Positions 14,909 to 29,661 of a stretch of 29,737 nucleotides of DNA are shown one piece after another (within the stretch, counting starts at the first letter, position 1; the number at the start of each line of letters is the position of its first letter). The DNA comes from a virus, in the IMG/VR virus record IMGVR_UViG_3300000116_000123, positions 1 to 29,737 of that record. One strand, written 5' to 3'. Both the position numbers and the translations under genes were made by a program. A model generated the notes under the pieces. The model did no database searches. It had not been told where the DNA came from and saw nothing but the letters and a program-made list of their open reading frames with translations.

Positions 14909-15358
14909 ATGAAGCATACGAAACAAAGAAGAGTAGGTAAGAAGAAGTTTAATCAACTAATTAATGAAGAAGTCAATAAGATAGAAGCGCACAGACCCCC
15001 AAGGGTCAAGCGCAATGGAGTAGAACTTAATACAGATAAGCAAGTAGAATATATCAAAGACAAGGAAGAGATAAGTGCTACCTCATACCAATCTAAACGG
15101 CCCCTGTCTAAACAGGGCCGTTTGAAGACAGCCTACTTCAATACTCCATGTATATACCTACTATATAAGAACGATAAGATAGTCTATATAGGTCAAACTA
15201 AATGCCTGGCTAAACGCATATCAGATCACTTCGATTCAGATAAAGAGTTTGACAACTTCGTTGTACACTCTTTCATAGAAGAAGAATACATTAGACTAAA
15301 GAAAGAACAAATACTTATTCGCAAACACAAACCAGCCTACAATGTGATCCATAAGTAA
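14909..15358 (+). CDS. GIY-YIG endonuclease (free-standing homing type)
   Basis: This 149-residue protein is the only plus-strand gene in the window. The N-terminal 75 residues are strongly basic (KHTKQRRVGKKKFNQL, RPPRVKRNG) and probably bind DNA. The C-terminal GIY-YIG domain is clear: 'CIYLLYKNDKIVYIGQT' (Y83, YIG 93-95), Arg in 'AKRISDH' (R103), the metal-binding Glu in 'LKKEQILIRKHKPAYN' (E133) and the final Asn (N145). All catalytic positions are present, so it should be active. Such genes in phages act as homing endonucleases or as seg-type free-standing nucleases. It lies between two divergently organised blocks, and the surrounding sequence differs in composition, which fits transfer. 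A strong hairpin lies inside the gene at 15095-15123. Confidence 0.85.
   Translation: MKHTKQRRVGKKKFNQLINEEVNKIEAHRPPRVKRNGVELNTDKQVEYIKDKEEISATSYQSKRPLSKQGRLKTAYFNTPCIYLLYKNDKIVYIGQTKCLAKRISDHFDSDKEFDNFVVHSFIEEEYIRLKKEQILIRKHKPAYNVIHK
15095..15123. repeat. 12-bp inverted repeat inside GIY-YIG gene
   Basis: TAAACGGCCCCTGT and ACAGGGCCGTTT form a hairpin with one bulged C and a 4-base loop. It encodes the linker between the basic N-terminus and the nuclease domain. Its G+C content stands out from the gene. It could be an RNA element, a minus-strand transcription stop, or the nuclease's own recognition region. Confidence 0.55.
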
Positions 15359-15650: not shown

Positions 15651-15851
15651 TTATTTGAGCTGATAAACTCTTACCGAATGGACATCTTCGCTCCTTAGCT
15701 TCTCGTAAATTAGTCGATTAAGGTCATTGACTAAATGTAGACCTTGTTCGCTCATTACTGCATATCTCTTGCGACTTGTAGCAATGCGAAGGGCTTGGTT
15801 CGCATTTAGACTTTCTTTGCTCAGATCTTCAAATGTATTAATATGTATCAT
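15651..15851 (-). CDS. 66-residue protein, paralogue of the 17047-17247 gene
   Basis: I place the start at ATG 15851 (MIHINTFEDLSKESLNANQAL), where it overlaps the stop of the clamp-like gene as TAATG. A longer frame to 15923 runs deep into that gene and is unlikely. The product has the same length as the protein at 17047-17247. It shares the core pattern 'LNAxQAxxIxxSRKxYxVMxE' and the ending 'VxVYxL', so the two are clear paralogues. No domain is recognised; the SRK(R/K)Y core suggests nucleic acid contact but this is a guess. It is the last gene before the bidirectional terminator. Confidence 0.7.
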   Translation of the reverse strand: MIHINTFEDLSKESLNANQALRIATSRKRYAVMSEQGLHLVNDLNRLIYEKLRSEDVHSVRVYQLK

Positions 15852-16408
15852 TACCAGTCTACTTTTATAGGCATTATTAATCCATAGGGCGCAGCTTTGT
15901 AATCGTGGTTTATTGGCGTGCAAACAATTCCTTTATTGGTGCTGTTAAATTCCATCTTAAAACCATTGGTAGCATTTAGGGCATCAGATAAATTCATTAA
16001 TAACTTAGCATTAATACCAACCTTTGCAACTGATTCCCTTGCTGATTCCTGAGGAATTACTTGCTCCCATTTAGGAAAGTTATTGTAATTTTCTCCATGC
16101 AACTGTAAAGGGAAATTTAATGTAGGTTTATTTTTAAACTTCGCATAAATATAAATTAGTCCGTTATCTCTTACCAGGTAAATATAGTCGGCATTGTAGA
16201 CTGACTTCCAAATTTGGGCATCAATCAACAGTCCAGTTTCTGGAATTAAATCAATTGAATCAGCATCTAAGATTAATTCATTAGGGACTACTGATAAAAT
16301 ATGAGCATCAGTAGCAACGAATTCTTTTTGTGTTAATAAAATAGATTGCATTACTGGTCTTAATGAATCTTTACTTGCTGATAAGTGTAGTTTAAAATTA
16401 GTTTTCAT
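15851..16408 (-). CDS. Short sliding-clamp (beta-clamp) like protein
   Basis: This gene encodes 185 residues. 'KDSLRPVMQSILLTQKEFVATDAHILSVVPNE' at about 14-44 is the pattern of beta-clamp domains (a helix followed by 'vaTDghrL' type strand). The end 'YGLIMPIKVDW' corresponds to the 'lIMPmrl' ending of DnaN. Bacterial DnaN is about twice this length, with three domains, so this protein has only one to two. It may trimerise or tetramerise to form a ring, or sequester host clamp partners. It precedes the paralogue gene by TAATG coupling. The family call is moderate: the key motifs are seen but identity to DnaN is low. Confidence 0.55.
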   Translation of the reverse strand: MKTNFKLHLSASKDSLRPVMQSILLTQKEFVATDAHILSVVPNELILDADSIDLIPETGLLIDAQIWKSVYNADYIYLVRDNGLIYIYAKFKNKPTLNFPLQLHGENYNNFPKWEQVIPQESARESVAKVGINAKLLMNLSDALNATNGFKMEFNSTNKGIVCTPINHDYKAAPYGLIMPIKVDW

Positions 16409-16961: not shown

Positions 16962-17046
16962 ACCCCCCTACTATGTTAAAGAGGGGGGTTACTATGTTAA
17001 AGAGGGTAGATACCCTACTATGTTAAAGAGGATACTATGTTAAAGA
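16962..17046 (+). repeat. Array 1: four direct copies of TACTATGTTAAAGA
   Basis: Exact copies start at 16969, 16990, 17016 and 17033 (spacings 21, 26 and 17). The first copy sits in the loop of a perfect 8-bp stem ACCCCCCT/AGGGGGGT (16962-16969 with 16982-16989). The last copy ends on the base before the stop codon of the 17047 gene. Same orientation as array 2. Confidence 0.9.
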
Positions 17047-17247
17047 TTAATTTAATTCATAGACCTCAACAAGGTCTGGTGATACATCTGGGTACTTTCT
17101 CAAGATAGTCTTTAGATAATCATCTGTAAAGCTAAACTCATTCTCTACCATGACTAAGTACTTCTTTCTACTTGCTAAGATCTTACACGCCTGTTTGGCG
17201 TTTAGATCTAACTTATTTATTTGGCTGGTATCTTTTACTACTATCAT
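17047..17247 (-). CDS. 66-residue protein, paralogue of the 15651-15851 gene
   Basis: The protein starts MIVVKDTSQINKLDLNAKQA and ends PDLVEVYELN. It has the same length as the protein encoded at 15651-15851. The two share 'LNAxQAxxIxxSRKxYxVMxE', an Asp in the middle and the 'VxVYxL' end. It is preceded one base away by a membrane-peptide gene and is followed immediately by repeat array 1. Each paralogue closes one group of small genes, so duplication of an ending unit is likely. No known domain; the conserved SRKxY motif may contact nucleic acid. Confidence 0.7.
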   Translation of the reverse strand: MIVVKDTSQINKLDLNAKQACKILASRKKYLVMVENEFSFTDDYLKTILRKYPDVSPDLVEVYELN

Positions 17248-17248
17248 A

Positions 17249-17359
17249 TCAATTACAAAATAATTCTACAAATATCCCAAATAGATATATATTTAAAACT
17301 ACTGCTGCCATACCTACTACATAGGTACATATCATTGCACTAAAATCTTTACTATTCAT
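17249..17359 (-). CDS. 36-residue single-span membrane peptide
   Basis: The frame starts MNSKDFSAMICTYVVGMAAV and ends in TGA one base before the next ATG. Residues about 9-33 are hydrophobic, enough for one membrane span. Its ATG overlaps the upstream stop (ATGAATAG). It fills an otherwise gene-free gap in a tightly packed operon. No family recognised. Confidence 0.5.
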   Translation of the reverse strand: MNSKDFSAMICTYVVGMAAVVLNIYLFGIFVELFCN

Positions 17360-17486
17360 TGTCTTGTCTTTTATTGGCATAATCAATAGCCTCGTTATTA
17401 ATGTTTCTAAAATTGTACTCTACATAATCTACATAGTGATTGTACCATTCAATTAGCCTCTCTAATTCTTCTATTCTACTTTCCAT
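17352..17486 (-). CDS. 44-residue acidic helical micro-protein
   Basis: The frame starts MESRIEELERLIEWYNHYVD and ends ANKRQDNE. Heptad-like spacing of Ile/Leu with Glu and Arg suggests a short coiled coil. Its ATG overlaps the end of the Api92-like gene by 11 bases, and its stop overlaps the membrane-peptide start. Function unknown. Confidence 0.5.
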   Translation of the reverse strand: MESRIEELERLIEWYNHYVDYVEYNFRNINNEAIDYANKRQDNE

Positions 17487-18066
17487 TTTGTATAGTGTTT
17501 AATTGTTTTAAATAAACCTCTTTAATCTCCTCTTTGTCATCCTTAGTCATGTAGTGCAGACTTTTCTCTAAGTCATCTAAATCTTCAAACCAATCTGGAG
17601 AATATTCTAAATCCTCAATAAGATTCTGTACTGCATATTCTGGCTCTTGGAAGTAAGTCCATTCTCTGTAACTCATGTTAATTTCTTCAGTCATCACTCC
17701 ATTAACATAAGTTTCTGAACCTCCAAAGTCGCAACCCATTTCCTCGAACTCAATAGTTATCTTTACTTTGTACTTCTCAGATATCTTTTGCATAAGAATG
17801 TTAGGTGGACTCCATGCACTACTACCAATTAATATAAGTTCATCGCCTTGTATTTCATTTCGGTCAATATCCCACCATCTTGTGCCATAAGCATCATAAA
17901 GACTTTCTACATTGTGTTCATGTCTGTTCTCATCTAAGAGAAGGTCGGCTACCTTTGTTAGATAGCCTTCACCCTCCTTAATACCCTTATCAATCTTACT
18001 CTGTATTTCCTTTAGGGTATCTTCGTTACCTTCGATGATTACCCAATTCCAACAATAATTTGCCAT
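17476..18066 (-). CDS. Api92/YubB-like ferredoxin-fold protein
   Basis: This gene encodes 196 residues. The start 'MANYCWNWVIIEGNEDTLKEI' followed by 'YGTRWWDIDRNEI', 'GSSAWSPPNILMQKISEKY' and 'EEMGCDFGGSE' is the signature of the Api92/YubB-like (DUF1281-type) family with a ferredoxin-like fold, found on phages and conjugative plasmids. The family's biochemical role is not established as far as I know. The C-terminal 60 residues are acidic and look specific to this phage. It lies in the group of small genes under array 2 and is overlapped by a micro-gene. The family call is fairly sure, the function unknown. Confidence 0.7.
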   Translation of the reverse strand: MANYCWNWVIIEGNEDTLKEIQSKIDKGIKEGEGYLTKVADLLLDENRHEHNVESLYDAYGTRWWDIDRNEIQGDELILIGSSAWSPPNILMQKISEKYKVKITIEFEEMGCDFGGSETYVNGVMTEEINMSYREWTYFQEPEYAVQNLIEDLEYSPDWFEDLDDLEKSLHYMTKDDKEEIKEVYLKQLNTIQNGK

Positions 18067-18078
18067 AGTTATTTTAGT

Positions 18079-18396
18079 TTAGTGATTATATAATGTGTAG
18101 CTAACGCTACCTTCTTTATGCAGTATGTATTCAAATTCTTGACACCAATCTTCATTAATTCCTATTACACCCCATCCCGTATATTGACTTGGGTCAAGGT
18201 TGTATGTAGAGCAATCTCTTATGCTATTTCTTAATAGTTGTGCCAATTTATATGCAGGGTCATCTCCTCTGTTCTTAGAGAAGTTTCTGTTAAACTCCTC
18301 TAACCATCTTAGAGTTGCATCTGGATAGCCATCCCAATGCTTATAGACTTTTGCATAATCTATTCCTTCAATCTTAATTGTGCATCTTGTTGCCAT
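18079..18396 (-). CDS. Conserved phage protein of unknown function
   Basis: This gene encodes 105 residues: 'MATRCTIKIEGIDYAKVYKHWDGYPDATLRWLEEFNRNF' then 'RGDDPAYKLAQLLRNSIRDCSTYNLDPSQYTGWGVIGIN'. I recognise 'YKHWDGYP' and 'TGWGV' as hallmarks of a small family frequent in phages and mobile elements, often next to Api92-like proteins, as here. Two cysteines are present but no metal motif. It begins 2 bases after the previous gene ends. No function can be given. Confidence 0.65.
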   Translation of the reverse strand: MATRCTIKIEGIDYAKVYKHWDGYPDATLRWLEEFNRNFSKNRGDDPAYKLAQLLRNSIRDCSTYNLDPSQYTGWGVIGINEDWCQEFEYILHKEGSVSYTLYNH

Positions 18397-18398
18397 AA

Positions 18399-18584
18399 TT
18401 ACTTAATTAATTCGTTTTTCTTTAATCTTATATATTCTTCTGCTCGGTATTCAACTTCTTCAGAAGTCAACTGAAATTCAAAATCATCTGCTCTTAAATA
18501 CATCTTACCATTGTTAATAAAAGCATCAATGTTATGAACCTTGAACCATTTAAGAGCCTTATGTAGTATTTCGTAAGTCATCAT
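18399..18584 (-). CDS. 61-residue hypothetical protein
   Basis: The protein starts MMTYEILHKALKWFKVHNID, has an aromatic-basic N-terminal helix, then 'NGKMYLRADDFEFQLTSEEV' and a Glu-rich helix. No family is recognised. It is spaced by two bases from both neighbours in the operon, which supports it being real. Confidence 0.55.
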   Translation of the reverse strand: MMTYEILHKALKWFKVHNIDAFINNGKMYLRADDFEFQLTSEEVEYRAEEYIRLKKNELIK

Positions 18585-18586
18585 AA

Positions 18587-18730
18587 TTATTTTGTTAAGT
18601 GGTTTAATTGTAGTTTAGTTAAGAAGTCTGTAAAGTCTTGCTCGTACTTTTTAATTGCTTCTCTGTTTCTGTCTGCTTCAGCTTGTCTTTTAGCTTTTGC
18701 AATGTTGTGATTGAATTGTTCTTTTTTCAT
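18587..18730 (-). CDS. 47-residue charged protein, first gene of array-2 operon
   Basis: I prefer the start at ATG 18730 (MKKEQFNHNIAKAKRQAEAD) over an ATG 45 bases further upstream, because a promoter box (TAGCTTTG, 18761-18768) lies where the longer version would begin. The protein is one long charged helix rich in Lys, Glu and Gln, ending LQLNHLTK. Function unknown. It is the first gene after the terminator-repeat-terminator region. Confidence 0.55.
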   Translation of the reverse strand: MKKEQFNHNIAKAKRQAEADRNREAIKKYEQDFTDFLTKLQLNHLTK

Positions 18731-18760
18731 TGTAATAGTTTTAGGGGTTATTGTTGGTAA

Positions 18761-18814
18761 CAAAGCTAAATACATTTTTTTCTAAAACAAGTCAAAAGTC
18801 AGACTTTAACATAA
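18761..18814 (-). promoter_or_regulatory. Candidate promoter for the small-gene operon
   Basis: On the minus strand the order is TTATGTTAAAG (18804-18814), TTTTGACTTG (18788-18797) and TAGCTTTG (18761-18768). TAGCTTTG fits the TAnnTTTG -7 box and a TTG lies 19 bases upstream of it. The GTTAAAG word is shared with two early promoters and with the repeat arrays. Confidence 0.5.
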
Positions 18815-18828
18815 TTTTAACAAATAAG

Positions 18829-18868
18829 CTAAAAAAACCGACAAAGCCCAAGAAATGGGCTGTCGGCA
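18829..18868 (-). terminator. Rho-independent terminator between array 2 and the small-gene operon
   Basis: The minus-strand RNA forms CCGAC-AGCCCA / TGGGCT-TTGTCGG (one 2-base bulge), loop TTTCT, then seven T. Transcripts entering or starting in array 2 would stop here, before the operon's own promoter. Confidence 0.85.
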
Positions 18869-18873
18869 GGGGG

Positions 18874-18948
18874 TACTATATTAAAGAGGGTACTATGTTA
18901 AAGAGGAAGGTAGGGGATACTATGTTAAAGACCCTACTATATTAAAGA
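18874..18948 (+). repeat. Array 2: four direct copies of TACTATRTTAAAGA
   Basis: Copies start at 18874 (A at the variable base), 18891 (G), 18918 (G) and 18935 (A), with spacings 17, 27 and 17. The array sits exactly between two minus-strand terminators. Orientation is the same as array 1. Confidence 0.9.
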
Positions 18949-18950
18949 GC

Positions 18951-18990
18951 AAAAAAAAGGACTGGTTACTATCTTCACCAATCCTTTTTC
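18951..18990 (-). terminator. Rho-independent terminator after terminase/methyltransferase operon
   Basis: The minus-strand stem AAAAAGGATTGGT pairs with ACCAGTCCTTTTT through one G-U wobble and is followed by a T run of eight. It closes the long early operon about 60 bases after the methyltransferase stop. Confidence 0.85.
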
Positions 18991-19050: not shown

Positions 19051-19527
19051 CTATTTTATAAAACAAACCCAATGGGTATTCATTCTTTTACCACTTTTAT
19101 GTCCAAACAATGGTTTATGTGGAGTAAGTTCTAATATATCTTTAATAGGGAACTGAACCTCGCTCCACTTAAATATAAGTGTACCATTAGGTTTCAGCAC
19201 CCTAAAACACTCTTCAAAACCCCTTCTTATCATTTCCTTCCAATCACCCTCAAGGTTTCCATATCTTCTGGTTATCTCTCCAAGTTTATTTCTCTTTATA
19301 TGTGGTGGATCAAAGACCACCACATAAAATGATTCATCAGGCTGTTTAATGTCTGTAAAGTCTCCAACAATATCAGGCTTTATTTCAAGCCTCTTGTACC
19401 CTCTTGCACAATCATTCTCGTGAACCTCATCTCTCCTATCGAGATATAATGCTCTACTGTCTTGTTTGTCGAACCACATACCTCGTGGCCCACAACAAAC
19501 GTCTAATACTTTCTTATCTGATGACAT
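19051..19527 (-). CDS. Class I SAM-dependent methyltransferase
   Basis: This gene encodes 158 residues. Motif I is 'VLDVCCGPRGMWFD' (7-20), replacing the usual Gly-rich loop DxxxGxG with DVCCGPRG. Motif II is likely 'ALYLDRRDE', and motif IV is 'VFDPPHIKR' (71-79), a DPPY-like site of the kind used by N6-adenine and related amino-methyltransferases. The rest, 'GFEECFRVLKPNGTLIFKW', is the usual beta-strand 5 region. There is no target-recognition domain, so the substrate is open: DNA, RNA or a protein. It follows the large terminase with a 14-base overlap, a place that would suit modification of phage DNA. No restriction partner is seen. Confidence 0.75.
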   Translation of the reverse strand: MSSDKKVLDVCCGPRGMWFDKQDSRALYLDRRDEVHENDCARGYKRLEIKPDIVGDFTDIKQPDESFYVVVFDPPHIKRNKLGEITRRYGNLEGDWKEMIRRGFEECFRVLKPNGTLIFKWSEVQFPIKDILELTPHKPLFGHKSGKRMNTHWVCFIK

Positions 19528-20728
19528 ATCTTCCTAAACTTTTCCCTTGTATTAAATATTGCAAGGCATATCTCATGGCATCCATAAAGTGGTTGTAGTT
19601 ATCTATAGGCTTAGAGTTCTTCTCTTGCCATATATAGTTATTCAGCTCTCTAATGATACCATGACTTGTTTTATCTACTATGATCTCGTAATCCTGAACA
19701 AGGGCAATCCCTGAAAGGATTGACCCTTTCTTCTTTATGGTTCCCCTAATGTTTATATCTTGGTTCTTGAGTTCTGTAATCAGTCGAGGTTCACTGCTAT
19801 CACAGATAATCAAATCAATACCACAATGCTGTCTGCACTTACTTGCTATTTGAGAAGTGGTGAGAGATTTCTGCCCAAATCCCTCTTTAACCCACATCTT
19901 CTTATTCTCATTATCTACACTGATCTGGACAAGAGCTGTAATATCCTGAGCAAATCCAGGGTCAAGACCCCAGCATGTTAAATCACTATGCTGATAATCT
20001 CCTACTCTCCAGTTCTTATAAACAACTCCTTCTGCCTTGCTTAACCAGCCCCCTAATATAGCGTGCTGGTATTTATCAGGCCTCTTCAACTTCATCTCTC
20101 TAATCTGCTCTAAGAAGGAAGGAGAGAGATTCTCTTGGTTATCTCTGTAGTCAGTATGTATATAAGTAACATTCTTCTCTGAGCCATTATAAGACTCAGG
20201 AGTTCCCATGTTCTGAAAGAAGCGTTGGTAAATCCAATGCTCTTTCGTGGTAGGGTTCATAATCATTATGCATCGGTTAGGCTTGTCTTGTGTTCTGACC
20301 GAGAAGTCTATCTTATCAAAAGTATCTTCATCTACCAACTCTTCTGCCTCATCCAATACAAAGGTCGTAACGCCATTTAGAGACTTCAGAGCAGCCGTTT
20401 GATTACCACTTGATGTTCTGATACCTTTGAACATTATAGTACTCTTAGTGGTCATATTTATAATCTCATCCTTTGTAATACGGAAGTCCTCTTGCAGACC
20501 CATCAGATCAATCTTCTCTATGAACTCAGGAATAATAGAGGTCTGAGCAGAGAGCATTGTATAACGGCTAAAGAGTATTCTATGTCCTTCTTCATAGGTC
20601 AGGTTGAGTAAGAAAACTGCAACACCAAAGGACTTTCCTGATCCCCTTCCTCCAGTTACTATGAAGTACCTGGAATCAGACATAAAGAGGGGTTGGTACT
20701 TAGGATGTAAAGCTATCTGTGTCTTCAT
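19514..20728 (-). CDS. terL: Terminase large subunit (PBSX/Terminase_3 type)
   Basis: This gene encodes 404 residues. The ATPase domain has Walker A 'GGRGSGKS' (26-33), Walker B 'VLDEAEE' (124-130) and 'MIMNPT' (155-160, coupling motif). The nuclease domain has Asp residues in 'GLDPGFAQD' (D256), 'IICDSSEP' (D310) and 'NHFMDAMRYA' (D383), the RNase H-like metal site. The protein packages DNA into the prohead, cutting and translocating it through the portal. It overlaps the small subunit gene by 29 bases. The terminase is far from the portal and capsid, placed in the early block, which is not the common lambdoid order. Confidence 0.95.
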   Translation of the reverse strand: MKTQIALHPKYQPLFMSDSRYFIVTGGRGSGKSFGVAVFLLNLTYEEGHRILFSRYTMLSAQTSIIPEFIEKIDLMGLQEDFRITKDEIINMTTKSTIMFKGIRTSSGNQTAALKSLNGVTTFVLDEAEELVDEDTFDKIDFSVRTQDKPNRCIMIMNPTTKEHWIYQRFFQNMGTPESYNGSEKNVTYIHTDYRDNQENLSPSFLEQIREMKLKRPDKYQHAILGGWLSKAEGVVYKNWRVGDYQHSDLTCWGLDPGFAQDITALVQISVDNENKKMWVKEGFGQKSLTTSQIASKCRQHCGIDLIICDSSEPRLITELKNQDINIRGTIKKKGSILSGIALVQDYEIIVDKTSHGIIRELNNYIWQEKNSKPIDNYNHFMDAMRYALQYLIQGKSLGRYVIR

Positions 20729-21149
20729 CTATTTGTGCATCTTCTATATCATCTACTTCTTCTGAATCAATATCTATAGTATCTTCTTCCTTGTCTCCTT
20801 CAGGGAGCTGCGTGTTAAAGAAGTTAATTACTGGAGCATTAGTTCTCCTTGGTGCTTGCTCTTGGATGTTCTCTCCTGCTTTACCATAGGCATACTCAAG
20901 CAGCAGCTTCATGTGCTGAAAGCTGTCTTCTGATAACTCAGCTAACTTTTCCATTGCACCTGCTTCATTGCCATAAACTTTCTTGATTGCATTGATAGCA
21001 AACTTACCTACTCGGTCTTTCTTGGCTTGGTTCATAGCAGCAGGCTTAGTAGTTACACTTCCTTTGAGCTTTACCTTTGATGGAAGTCGTTTGTTGTACT
21101 TCCTTCCATCAGTAGACTTAATCTCGTTTGACTTTGGTTTTTTTGCCAT
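20700..21149 (-). CDS. terS: Terminase small subunit (putative)
   Basis: This gene encodes 149 residues. The basic N-terminus (MAKKPKSNEIKSTDGRKYNKRLPSKVKLKG) precedes a helical part 'DRVGKFAINAIKKVYGNEAGAMEKLAELSEDSFQHMKLLLEYAYGK' (about 46-91), and the C-terminus is very acidic (EEDTIDIDSEEVDDIED). A DNA-binding start, a helical oligomerisation core and an acidic tail that could touch the large subunit match small terminases. The direct overlap with the large terminase gene is the strongest support. Sequence alone would not be decisive, since small terminases diverge strongly. Confidence 0.65.
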   Translation of the reverse strand: MAKKPKSNEIKSTDGRKYNKRLPSKVKLKGSVTTKPAAMNQAKKDRVGKFAINAIKKVYGNEAGAMEKLAELSEDSFQHMKLLLEYAYGKAGENIQEQAPRRTNAPVINFFNTQLPEGDKEEDTIDIDSEEVDDIEDAQIDEDTDSFTS

Positions 21150-21411
21150 TATTAATTTGGTATAGTTGTCTATAGGTTTCGTTTACTTTGTCTATGATCT
21201 CATCTCCATGATAGATATACTCTGTTTCACTTACCTTCTCTCCTTGTCGTATAACTACTCTATACTTTCCTGTCTCTTTCCAGTACGCTCCATCTCTTAC
21301 TGCTTCAGGCTCCCAAGTAACATAGATGTGCTTACTAAAACACCACTGCATTTCTTTAACAGGGTTAGGGGTCTTTGGAGACCCCACCCTTTTCTTTCTT
21401 CTCTTAGGCAT
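21118..21411 (-). CDS. 97-residue basic hypothetical protein
   Basis: The protein starts MPKRRKKRVGSPKTPNPVKE and then has 'MQWCFSKHIYVTWEPEAVRDGAYWKETGKYRVVIRQGEKVSETEYIYHGDEI', a strand-rich middle with aromatic residues. Both ends are Lys/Arg-rich, suggesting nucleic acid binding. It overlaps the small terminase by 32 bases and the DnaA-like gene by 8, so it is part of the same operon. No family recognised. Confidence 0.6.
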   Translation of the reverse strand: MPKRRKKRVGSPKTPNPVKEMQWCFSKHIYVTWEPEAVRDGAYWKETGKYRVVIRQGEKVSETEYIYHGDEIIDKVNETYRQLYQINNGKKTKVKRD

Positions 21412-21931
21412 ATATTCTTGAGCGAATAGATTTGACCATGATACTTAACTTCTCATAAATCTCATCCATCTCACTTTGAGCTAAACCAATAGTGAGGTCA
21501 GTAAACTTCCCTCCCTCAAGTTCTGCAACAGCAAGCTGATTGCGTAGCTGTTCATTCTCTTTCTTTAGCTGTATAATACGTTCAGATAGTTCCTTACGCT
21601 CTTCATCTTCTATATCAATATCTACTTCAGAAAGTACAAACACTTCTCGCATCATATTGTATAATCTCTTATACTCCTTCTCCATCATAGCAAACTCAAA
21701 AATCACCTTTACATTGTGAAGAACAGTAGCATGGTCTCTTTCAATAACCTCTCCTATTAAAACAAGTGAAGTAGGTCTTGACTCTTCACCATTCATCTCT
21801 CTTGCTATCTTGCAGTAAATTGCTCGTGCATAAGTAACATGCCTTCTTTGATCTCTTTTAGTTAGACTGAATCCAACTTCCTTCTCAATCATTTCCTTTA
21901 AACTCGTCAATCTGTCTTTCATACATTTCAA
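21404..21931 (-). CDS. DnaA domain-IV-like DNA-binding protein with coiled coil
   Basis: This gene encodes 175 residues. Residues about 24-76 carry the DnaA C-terminal helix-turn-helix pattern: 'RRHVTYARAIYCKIAREM' (the conserved helix before the motif) and 'LVLIGEVIERDHATVLHNVK', equivalent to the DnaA signature 'GxRDHTTVxHA'. The AAA+ domain of DnaA is absent. The rest is a coiled coil ('ELSERIIQLKKENEQLRNQLAVAELEGG'), likely a dimerisation arm. Such proteins could recognise DnaA boxes at the phage origin or act as regulators. It lies upstream of the terminase genes. The start could also be the second ATG (21922); I keep the first. Confidence 0.75.
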   Translation of the reverse strand: MKCMKDRLTSLKEMIEKEVGFSLTKRDQRRHVTYARAIYCKIAREMNGEESRPTSLVLIGEVIERDHATVLHNVKVIFEFAMMEKEYKRLYNMMREVFVLSEVDIDIEDEERKELSERIIQLKKENEQLRNQLAVAELEGGKFTDLTIGLAQSEMDEIYEKLSIMVKSIRSRIYA

Positions 21932-22241
21932 TTATTATATCCTTAAACACTTTTCTACTGACTTCCTCATACTCTTCCAGTGAGTAAGTCTTCATATCTT
22001 CATTCTCTTCCAGTGGGGTAGCATCAGTGAACCTGCTGTCCATGATGTCCTCTATCTTACTAATAGCTACCTGGATGCCTGAGCATACCAAGTACTCTTC
22101 CTTATCCTCAAAGTATTGTAATACGTCATCAAACATATCAAACTTATTCCAAACCATATAGGCAAGTAGGGTAGTAAAATAATATCTTTCAATCTTGTTG
22201 CGGTCTTCATCACTTACACTAAAGTGTTTCTCTATAGACAT
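21885..22241 (-). CDS. 118-residue acidic hypothetical protein
   Basis: The protein starts MSIEKHFSVSDEDRNKIERYYF and is rich in Glu and Asp, with helices 'FTTLLAYMVWNKFDMFDDVLQYFEDKEEYLVC' and 'EEYEEVSRKVFKDIIIEMYERQIDEF'. It overlaps the exonuclease gene by 23 bases and the DnaA-like gene by 47, the longest overlap in this block, so either this end or the DnaA-like start may be misplaced. No family recognised; an all-helical partner protein is plausible. Confidence 0.55.
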   Translation of the reverse strand: MSIEKHFSVSDEDRNKIERYYFTTLLAYMVWNKFDMFDDVLQYFEDKEEYLVCSGIQVAISKIEDIMDSRFTDATPLEENEDMKTYSLEEYEEVSRKVFKDIIIEMYERQIDEFKGND

Positions 22242-23013: not shown

Positions 23014-23103
23014 TGGCCCTGGTGGGACTCGAACCCACGCACAAGCAGATCTCAGGTAAATACCCTACGTCACAATGCTCTAAACCGTCTGAGCTACAGG
23101 GCC
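23014..23103 (-). tRNA. Atypical tRNA gene, isotype not determined
   Basis: The 90-base minus-strand element has a perfect acceptor stem (GGCCCTG with CAGGGCC), a D arm (GCTC/GAGC with GG in the loop), a T arm (GTGGG-TTCGAGT-CCCAC) and discriminator A. No CCA is encoded. Between D and T arms lie 38 bases instead of the usual 22-23 or about 35 in long-variable-arm tRNAs. They do not form a standard anticodon arm next to the D stem. The best 7-base loop (GTATTTA on a TAGG/CCTG stem) would give anticodon ATT, but is displaced by about seven bases. It may be a decayed or unusual tRNA. Confidence 0.65.
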
Positions 23104-24595: not shown

Positions 24596-25354
24596 CTATC
24601 TTATTTTTCTCATTAATGTATAAGTGTCTTTAACTACCTCATTGAACCATAAAGTGAAGCTTTCATCACCATCAGGAATAGGTTGCTTACTTGCAGTAAG
24701 TTGATTAGTGACTGCATATTTAAATGCATTTACATACCCATAAGCATCATCCGATCTTAATATAAGTGTAGCTGCTTTTCTTAGTGCTTGTGCTGGAAGA
24801 TTGTTCTTGCCCCACTTAGCTACCATATTAGCAAACTCATTAATCACATGGTCGCTTAAATCTTGATTAACAAACTTCAAGTTTCCATTCTTTAGTTGCT
24901 TATGCCCACGCTCTACTCCATCATAGATAGTAGCTACAACACCGTTAGAAAGAACCTTTTGGTACTCAATCATCTTACTTCTTAGGTGCTTGTACTCTTT
25001 GATGCCATTCTCAGAAAAAGACTTTACATAGTCATACAAACTCCAAACCTTATTGTGAGCGTTGAGGTCAATAATAAATCTTTGTACATCATCAAAGTCC
25101 TCTCCATTTAACCAATCAACAATAGAACATGGTACAGAGTCTGCTCCAAGCTCTTTGAGAGCTTGTAGCCTATGCTGTCCTTCAAGAGCATAATATCTCT
25201 TTCCTTTCTTAAACACTTTAATAGTGTCAGCGAATCCATAGTCCTGAATAAGGCTCTTCATCTTTTCTTTGTGTGAGTTGTTTAGATCTCTGTTCCCAAG
25301 AACATAATCAATCTTCTCAATCGGCAGTGTTTCCACTTGTGCAAAATTTAACAT
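24596..25354 (-). CDS. ParB/Srx-domain protein
   Basis: This gene encodes 252 residues. The N-terminal ParB-like fold (1-95) has 'LPIEKIDYVLGNRDLNNSHKEKMKSLIQDYGF' and the nucleotide-binding signature 'ALEGQHRLQALKELG' (56-70), then 'VPCSIVDW'. The C-terminal part is helical, with 'WSLYDYVKSFSENGIKEYKHLRSKM', and does not look like a centromere-binding helix-turn-helix. Phage proteins of this kind often act as transcription or DNA-processing factors rather than partition proteins, and no ParA partner is seen. It is the first gene after the promoter at 25415-25445. Confidence 0.8.
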   Translation of the reverse strand: MLNFAQVETLPIEKIDYVLGNRDLNNSHKEKMKSLIQDYGFADTIKVFKKGKRYYALEGQHRLQALKELGADSVPCSIVDWLNGEDFDDVQRFIIDLNAHNKVWSLYDYVKSFSENGIKEYKHLRSKMIEYQKVLSNGVVATIYDGVERGHKQLKNGNLKFVNQDLSDHVINEFANMVAKWGKNNLPAQALRKAATLILRSDDAYGYVNAFKYAVTNQLTASKQPIPDGDESFTLWFNEVVKDTYTLMRKIR

Positions 25355-25414
25355 AATAAAACATTTTTAATAATACCTACTCTGTTCGGTTTTCGGCTAC
25401 CCCGTTTCATGAAG

Positions 25415-29545: not shown

Positions 29546-29661
29546 TAATCCATCCACTTACCATGAGTTCTCAAATGCCAAAACCTGTGACTAATAACCA
29601 TTATGATTATACGCCAAAAGGTATCTGCTTCGTATGTTCCTGCTTTAGTAACTAATTTCAT
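29545..29661 (-). CDS. 38-residue basic aromatic micro-protein
   Basis: The frame starts MKLVTKAGTYEADTFWRIII and ends HGKWMD. It is rich in Trp, His and Arg and has one short hydrophobic run (RIIIMVIS). The TAATG junction to the M15-like gene supports it. Function unknown. Confidence 0.45.
   Translation of the reverse strand: MKLVTKAGTYEADTFWRIIIMVISHRFWHLRTHGKWMD

Follow-up and report, generated by a model that had tools for sequence, protein, structure and literature searches.

The DNA analysed here, called the window, is a stretch of 29,737 nucleotides (nt), positions 1 to 29,737 of the IMG/VR virus record IMGVR_UViG_3300000116_000123. It possesses two arrays of a short direct repeat, TACTATRTTAAAGA, which are the subject of this analysis. 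Eight exact copies were found in the window, four in each array, all on the plus strand and antisense to the surrounding genes. Array 1 (16969-17046, plus strand) contains exact units TACTATGTTAAAGA at 16969-16982, 16990-17003, 17016-17029 and 17033-17046, and reads TCTTTAACATAGTA on the coding minus strand. Array 2 (18874-18948, plus strand) contains exact units TACTATRTTAAAGA at 18874-18887, 18891-18904, 18918-18931 and 18935-18948. Each array looks like two pairs. The spacings between successive unit starts are 21, 26 and 17 in array 1 (pairs 21 and 17 apart, 26 between the pairs) and 17, 27 and 17 in array 2 (both pairs 17 apart, 27 between them). The initial annotation, which had described eight 14-base copies in two places, four each, in one orientation and with these spacings, was exact. 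A search of both strands of the record revealed no further exact copy, and a control with the reversed pattern also gave 0. Against the 8 observed, chance would give 0.0028 exact copies at this base composition. When up to three mismatches were allowed, 36 matches were obtained against a shuffle mean of 16.5, so the matches with two and three mismatches elsewhere in the window are largely due to chance. Gene orientation was read from the list of open reading frames. The larger genes lie on the minus strand with one exception (14909-15358), and therefore the unit reads TCTTTAAYATAGTA in the direction of transcription. Folding of both window arrays as RNA and as DNA on both strands gave z-scores of -2.0 to 0.1 and no hairpin, and Rfam at the gathering threshold gave no family match at the arrays.

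The gene of the terminase large subunit TerL (19514-20728, minus strand; PHROG terminase large subunit, E 7e-45) was used as landmark for the array in relatives. The position of array 2 is the counterpart of the array found 3' of TerL in these relatives, while in the window a methyltransferase (MTase) gene intervenes. Relatives were taken from IMG/VR by a search with the window TerL, which supplied 80, and by two more searches with divergent TerLs, which added others; each search matched at least about 600 IMG/VR stretches. The resulting 168 TerL loci, window included, were reduced to 127 non-redundant ones by similarity thresholds of the analysis itself. All of them share ancestry, and locus counts are not counts of independent events. 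An array oriented in the TerL direction lies behind TerL in 94 of the 102 non-redundant loci whose sequence continues there for 500 nt or more, the window counted among the 102. The remaining 8 have no class-matched array, and several of these have other repeats. The repeat is thus neither absent from the relatives nor scattered, the two patterns which the initial annotation had named as contrary to its proposal.

The relatives possess several classes of units, the patterns of which were derived from these same data. Class A, the class of the window, is TTTAAYRYAGKR, class B is TTAAACRYAGKR, class C is GTTTAATATRNNG and class D is TCCGTCTTTGTTATGG, along with a rare class E. Class D units are confined to a single subclade, where they are found alongside two C units. 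Lineage-specific units in the sense direction include TTTAACATAGTA, TTAAACATAGTA, GTTTAATATGRWGG and others. The class C unit is nearly palindromic (ATGTTTAATAT, for example in L182, L196 and L246), and backwards it resembles the class B unit. Exact unit pairs were found in 16 IMG/VR stretches. Clusters of at least two units, sought on both strands of the 127 loci, numbered 153 in the TerL direction and 3 in the opposite one, and these 3 are near-palindromic class C units read backwards. Similarly, the pattern TTWAAYRYAGKA gave 151 matches in 25 whole records, 150 of them on one strand of the record, with 4 matches for the reversed control. The conservation, the strand bias and the drift between lineages show a repeat system which is fixed in place and slowly changing. 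The arrays constitute a genuine control system that is conserved across a large family of uncultured phages.

Four spellings of the unit were tried in the PMC literature (5.39 million papers) and all were absent. Among the matches listed, the literature on phage DnaA-like proteins and DnaA boxes describes no such system, and the word DnaA does not occur in the main text of PMC8776804. A blastn search of INPHARED with array 1 gave 25 records with a best E of 0.09, taken as chance. A host-chromosome element was also considered and rejected. The scan of species genomes for close class A-like pairs, in which classes B and C were not sought, gave 108 stretches, 21 of them with two units at up to two mismatches, and by eye these 21 look like coding or chance matches. 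A Trueperaceae genome (L132) contains two exact units 23 apart, situated within a different repeat of 23 nt.

The spacing between units follows a sharp rule. Among successive unit spacings, 181 of 188 are odd (50 of 54 representative loci; L146 and the D-type loci L197, L222 and L226 were left out of this count). After similar spacers of classes A to C were collapsed, 63 of 69 distinct spacers are odd (P 2.2e-13 at equal odds), with lengths from 13 to 65 and varied sequences; the collapse merged similar strings of unequal length and so hid even ones, including the window's 26. Of the 186 unique spacer strings 11 are even, and a conservative count, which keeps the even strings with one duplicate excepted, gives 63 of 73 odd (P 7.8e-11). 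Counted over 80 distinct spacing patterns, 240 of 253 spacings are odd. The rule is weaker in the D subclade and L146: seven D-subclade loci together with L146 show 25 odd spacings out of 31, and all the even ones are 32. In the 34 four-unit patterns, oddness was observed in 33 first, 29 middle and 34 last spacings, and the middle gap accounts for five of the six even spacings, the window's 26 being of this kind. As the even spacings fall mostly between pairs and arrays of a single pair exist, the pair of boxes is the likely module. Distances from the last unit to a nearby palindrome show no such parity (18 odd, 16 even), which assigns the oddness to the spacing between units. Equal-armed hairpins as a source of odd spacing were sought by folding and by flank complementarity and were not found. 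In classes A and C the complementarity of the flanks around units showed no excess over re-paired flanks, while class B had a small excess in one register (three pairs; reached by 17 of 500 shuffles). The initial annotation had read the spacings near 17 and 27 as binding on defined helix faces. The spacings do bunch at 15-21, 25-33 and 43-51, roughly one helical turn apart, and this helix-face bunching is part of the spacing rule, of which odd parity is the stronger component.

The best candidate for a protein binding the units is a DnaA domain IV-like protein encoded at 21404-21922 (minus strand), 1.2 kilobases (kb) before TerL. It has 172 amino acids (aa) from its ATG, with a TTG start at 21931. 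The window protein matches PF08299 at E 1.4e-6 with 28.7 bits, under the curated cut-off of 31.5; 30 of 37 family members match the same domain, the best at E 9.7e-15. A profile of the 37 members matched PDB 1j1v, the domain IV of E. coli DnaA bound to its box, at E 1.5e-9. The structural model has a predicted local distance difference test score (pLDDT) of 85.8, and its four best Foldseek matches are DnaA DNA-binding domains (E 0.035-0.083), with template modelling (TM) scores of 0.68-0.74 by target length for the three isolated-domain chains among them. According to the model, the protein has the domain IV helix-turn-helix fold of DnaA. The DNA-binding domain is followed in the model by long helices of 39 and 23 residues, suggesting that the C-terminal part may form a coiled coil. 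No AAA+ ATPase domain was found in the 172-aa protein, where Pfam gave the C-terminal domain and weak matches of other kinds. A count by eye shows that 26 of the 37 members retain the DH of the recognition helix. The shift from an oriented to a near-palindromic box coincides with the loss of this DH motif.

Among the 53 array-bearing loci that extend 5 kb or more upstream, 49 encode the DnaA-like protein, and the number rises to 52 when whole records are searched. For three of the four initial misses a match was obtained at another place in the record, in two cases across stop codons; the record of the fourth has a length of 7.3 kb. Stand-alone DNA-binding heads of the DnaA type are widespread in this phage family and have remote relatives in cultured phages. 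These homologues belong to flavobacterial phages, namely Olleya phage Harreka_1 (L290; profile E 2.2e-26), Cellulophaga phage Nekkels_1 (L291; 4.5e-24) and Nonlabens phage P12024L (L289; 3.6e-15). The homologue gene adjoins replication or recombination genes in two of the three, Nekkels_1 being the exception.

Fifteen longer contigs of about 30-42 kb were examined for other array sites, record G027 being used to base 38,900 of 41,745. Contig breakpoints differ while the gene order is circular, and the genomes therefore look circularly permuted. In six of the 15 genomes, the window among them, arrays lie more than 1 kb apart, some of them 8-17 kb from TerL. In five genomes a pair was found 8.4-10.8 kb before TerL. 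Four of them (G001, G002, G003 and G005) have a holin-like and an M15 endolysin-like gene, whichever comes first, with the pair occupying the space between the two and ending 1-5 nt before the next start codon, while in the fifth (G010) the pair has other neighbours. Pfam identified M15 at E 5.6e-21 in G002 and GTA_holin_3TM at E 0.0085 in G001, and the remaining lysis genes were assigned by eye. Three of four class B genomes possess a pair between two structural genes, the second unit being degenerate in two. The extra pairs have eight spacings (13-27), all odd. As five of the 15 genomes have a pair 0.7-1.2 kb upstream of the gene which starts at 29557 in the window, a further pair, perhaps of the lysis-gene type by gene order, may lie 0.5-1 kb past the right end of the window. 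In G005, G006 and G010, the pair between homologues of w171 and w120 has the TAA stop of the upstream structural gene inside a unit (TTAAACATAG or TTAAACACAG), and a terminator-like hairpin directly follows these TAA-containing pairs.

The position behind TerL raises the question of a packaging (pac/cos) site bound by the small terminase subunit. The array lies directly behind TerL in the 94 loci given above, its region is the sole one found in about half of the examined genomes, and circular permutation is as in headful packaging. The wide separation of arrays in six genomes, some far from TerL, speaks against such a site, and the window itself has two arrays. The probable small terminase subunit, TerS, is a small basic protein encoded at 20700-21149 (minus strand), before TerL. 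Only 1 of its 22 homologues matches a TerS PHROG (E 0.007), and its model, of low confidence (pLDDT 65), has no recognisable DNA-binding fold. Among close relatives TerS is moreover nearly constant where the units change, as detailed below, and a packaging site is distinctly improbable.

Many arrays are associated with intrinsic terminators. For 64 arrays in 50 representatives, a terminator was found within 90 nt before the array in 15, inside it in 14 and within 100 nt after it in 3. The control frequencies of such terminators are 2.9% for random windows of 100 nt and 11.7% for stretches of equal length after stop codons, the array with its flanks being longer than one control window. In the window, the terminator after the MTase gene (18951-18984, minus strand; hairpin GGATTGGT..ACCAGTCC followed by T8; found by scan) lies directly before array 2 in the direction of transcription. 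A second terminator-like hairpin (18831-18866, minus strand; CCGACAGCCC..GGGCTTTGTCGG, T7), directly after array 2, was recognised by eye and missed by the scan. The terminator before class A arrays has by eye a conserved interior, approximately G(T/C)GAA(C/G)A(A/T)(A/T)AGTAGC, within stems of differing sequence; it was seen in the window terminator at 18951-18984 and in L010, L016, L135, L140, L012, L144 and L021.

These terminators bear on an RNA alternative, in which the units are boxA-like elements (NusB-S10 sites) serving in the transcript as tandem antitermination or translation-repression signals. The units have sense-strand orientation, the boxA core CTCTTTAACA is present in the class A unit, and class B matches the stretch TTCATAAACATA of the Flavivirga rrn leader (p 0.016). 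Five of seven unit types match GYTCTTTAANA, which passages of PMC5725501 give as the gamma-proteobacterial boxA consensus, at shuffle p from 0.0025 (window class) to 0.023. When the seven unit types were compared with four Bacteroidetes rrn leaders, p 0.05 was reached in 3 of 28 comparisons. The ends of the lysis-gene pairs just before a start codon in four genomes also suit this alternative, as a boxA in the 5' untranslated region represses suhB translation according to the same part of PMC5725501. However, flavobacterial rrn leaders have GTTCATNGACATA and not CTCTTTAACA, and 29 of the 64 arrays are behind or around a terminator, where RNA is scarcer. The triplet after class A units (n=82) is CCC in 29 and GGG in 28, an interchange which is odd for RNA and natural for, and consistent with, a duplex site. 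The terminators before or inside arrays, this interchange and the bunching by helical turns together argue for a DNA element, and the boxA alternative is quite unlikely.

Other features were also enriched in the 700 nt behind TerL of the 54 representatives. The promoter-like TTG-N17-21-TAnnTTTG is present in 22 of them against 7.1% of random same-locus segments, GTTAAANTTTTGTTAA in 14 against 1.8% of controls, and alternating purine-pyrimidine runs of at least 12 in 21 against 2.9%; the control segments include non-intergenic DNA, and part of the enrichment merely reflects a control region. The window's own 700 nt behind TerL contain none of these three features, as the MTase gene occupies this stretch. 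A promoter-like site of the window (18761-18790, minus strand; TTG-N19-TAGCTTTG), which we take to follow the Bacteroidetes-type promoter consensus, was recognised by eye before the small genes downstream of array 2. Z-DNA-like runs such as TGTATACGCGTACGCACA are situated behind the arrays of L177, L166, L170, L147, L255, L273 and others. A palindrome, TTTAGAATNATTCTAAA, which resembles Fur/Irr-type boxes, was seen behind arrays of L188, L211, L154, L260, L273, L237 and G002 (+3.2 kb), often 32-33 nt past the last unit and sometimes repeated at 24 nt. At up to four mismatches it is present in 34 of 54 loci against 21% of controls.

A switch of the GC skew was also observed near arrays. Detrended cumulative G-C on the TerL strand reaches its maximum at most 622 nt from an array in 11 of 14 array-bearing genomes (P 0.005-0.045 each under random placement; the 622-nt limit was set after seeing the data), the misfits being G010, G030 and G043. 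The skew peak has a median distance of 209 nt from the array, compared with 453 nt from the TerL stop. For the window, the corresponding figures are 88 nt (from array 1) and 2.4 kb (from TerL). No comparable relation to arrays was observed for the skew minimum in the 14 genomes. The skew thus switches near the array, yet as a maximum, which is less suggestive of an origin than of an operon boundary or a terminus.

This has a direct bearing on the possibility that the arrays form a replication origin of iterons and an AT-rich region, initiated by the DnaA-like protein, which is a special case of the explanation preferred below. The DnaA fold of the candidate, the place of its homologue beside replication or recombination genes in two cultured phages, the purine-pyrimidine runs behind arrays and the skew switch itself are in favour of an origin. 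It is opposed by the presence of more than one array in several genomes, by the sign of the skew and by the lack of an initiator ATPase in the protein, and an origin is accordingly a doubtful though conceivable role. The initial annotation had proposed an operator or iteron system, and the conserved and positionally fixed place of the repeats (94 of 102 loci) in intergenic control regions supports a proposal of this kind.

To compare possible partners, co-occurrence was counted in the 53 array-bearing loci. TerS was found in 53, p118 in 52, p151 in 51, a sigma-like protein in 50 and the DnaA-like protein in 49. p118 is a 118-aa protein of no known family, encoded beside the DnaA-like gene (21885-22241, minus strand). 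The initial annotation had listed sigma factor, DnaA-like, ParB-like and SRK-core proteins as possible binders. From this list the DnaA-like protein emerged as best candidate by its occurrence, profile and fold, and the sigma-like protein is common, whereas the ParB-like protein (12 of 53) and the SRK protein (8 of 53) were rejected as general partners. A parS centromere was rejected likewise, the cognate ParB-like protein being found in just those 12 loci.

In a contrast picked by hand, which set four D-subclade loci against six C loci from close relatives, the DnaA-like protein showed 39% identity between the groups and 66-71% within them. In comparison, TerS had 88% between and 93-94% within, and TerL 93% between and 95-97% within. 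Covariation was also tried as proof of a single partner and was found not discriminating: among close pairs from 50 common loci the correlation with the motif is 0.61 for p151, 0.54 for TerS, 0.52 for the DnaA-like protein and 0.49 for the sigma-like protein. Alternatively, the same arrays may serve as transcription operators, with the paired boxes bound by another partner, either the sigma-like protein, p151, p118 or a host factor. The three phage proteins are nearly as constant in array-bearing loci as any, and p151 has the top correlation. None of them has a clear DNA-binding domain, the sigma-like protein giving weak sub-threshold matches, p151 none at E 0.01 and p118 one at E 0.11. Another partner is somewhat unlikely.

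The explanation we prefer, with a probability of about 0.43, is that the arrays are paired duplex binding sites, most likely bound by the phage DnaA domain IV-like protein as a boundary or control complex. The arrays would be clusters of double-stranded DNA binding sites made of paired direct boxes of 12-14 base pairs (bp), situated in gaps between operons and at some gene junctions. The phage's own DnaA-like protein would most likely bind these boxes, and its C-terminal helices would join two DNA-binding heads on a box pair. Behind TerL, the complex would mark where the replication/packaging operon ends and the next operons begin. There it would control starts and stops, namely a downstream promoter and perhaps also replication, as an origin or as a barrier, and the smaller pairs between lysis genes would serve as local roadblocks or repressor sites. 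Binding by the DnaA-like protein, its dimerisation and the effect of binding are the parts of this proposal that we infer.

Several observations weigh against this explanation. The Foldseek E-values are weak, and no comparable array was found in Harreka_1, Nekkels_1 (50,000 of 53,385 bases searched) or P12024L, which possess the homologous protein. Units of class A (p 0.52) and class B (p 0.13) resemble the DnaA box TTATNCACA no more closely than shuffles do, those of L185 matching at p 0.018, while five of seven match the boxA consensus as described above. The flank of class C is GGG in 104 of 118 cases and never CCC, hence not interchangeable. In the C/D contrast the sigma-like protein (67 vs 84%) and p151 (64 vs 85%) also drop (5 pairs), and L218, counted in the D group, has a D-type protein with mostly C-type units. 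On trees of 80 loci, changes of unit class number 8 for the DnaA-like protein and 6 each for TerL and TerS. Other proteins, most of all p151, give correlations between motif and protein distances that are just as strong. Being a maximum, the skew extremum does not resemble an origin under the usual leading-strand rule, and in G005 and G009 it is nearer to the TerL stop than to the array. The periodogram of the spacings is broad, with a peak at about 11.5 bp (R 0.42) and not sharp at 10.5 (0.37). Gaps of 70-600 nt between separate clusters lean odd as well (23 of 32, P 0.01), which the pair idea does not predict. Finally, binding by a DnaA-like protein leaves the odd-spacing rule itself unexplained.

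The most interesting result is the parity of the spacings, which forms a sharp quantitative rule. We know of no mechanism with a two-base period which demands odd spacing. A narrower proposal, rather unlikely on the present evidence, is a private DnaA-type system, consisting of a DnaA head with a coiled coil and its own paired boxes at operon switches, which would read DNA in a two-bp register. In this proposal the odd-spacing rule, unpredicted by B-form geometry, means that the complex must read DNA with a two-bp register, of a kind which, if true, was not previously described. If parity reflects binding, it points to a geometry of protein-DNA assembly without known model; if it does not, it implies an evolutionary reason for even-sized insertions and deletions. 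With the explanation preferred above, a family of uncultured phages gains a control system with named sites and a candidate protein.

A few other elements of the window were noted. The proteins encoded at 15651-15923 and 17047-17247 (both minus strand) have a common core (TSRKRYAVM and ASRKKYLVM). The small gene immediately upstream of array 1 therefore looks like a duplicate of the gene farther along, and several relatives have matches at two comparable places. A tRNA gene lies in the early region (23014-23103, minus strand; Rfam RF00005, 46.5 bits). A DUF805b cis-regulatory RNA (25374-25406, minus strand; RF02914, 42.4 bits) is situated just upstream of the ParB-like gene (24596-25354).

The arrays share features with several known systems. 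Iteron arrays are found at plasmid and phage replication origins, such as the O iterons of lambda. Like them, the phage arrays have about four direct repeats in fixed orientation, intergenic and near replication genes, and reach the number of at least three non-coding repeats. They differ in that some phage genomes have arrays at two or three sites, which lie behind terminators as well as between lysis genes, and in that the skew sign does not fit, the origin function being putative here. With boxA of rrn and suhB, as described in part of PMC5725501, they share the sense-strand orientation and the CTCTTTAACA within the class A unit. In contrast, the phage units form tandem arrays, often behind terminators, the class C unit has drifted away from boxA, and the flavobacterial leader stretch differs. 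Among cultured phages, Harreka_1, in which the homologue is annotated as 'DnaA protein' (NC_062748), Nekkels_1 and P12024L possess remote homologues of the DnaA-like protein and differ in the missing array; the P12024L TerL, at 50% identity, is the best match in the phage collection. The likeness to DnaA domain IV (PF08299) and the DnaA boxes of bacterial oriC lies in the fold of the candidate and in the clustering of short oriented boxes. Unlike DnaA, the phage protein has long C-terminal helices in place of an AAA+ domain, and its presumed boxes, TTWAACATA/TTTAATAT and not TTATNCACA, are paired, oddly spaced and sometimes present as several arrays per genome.

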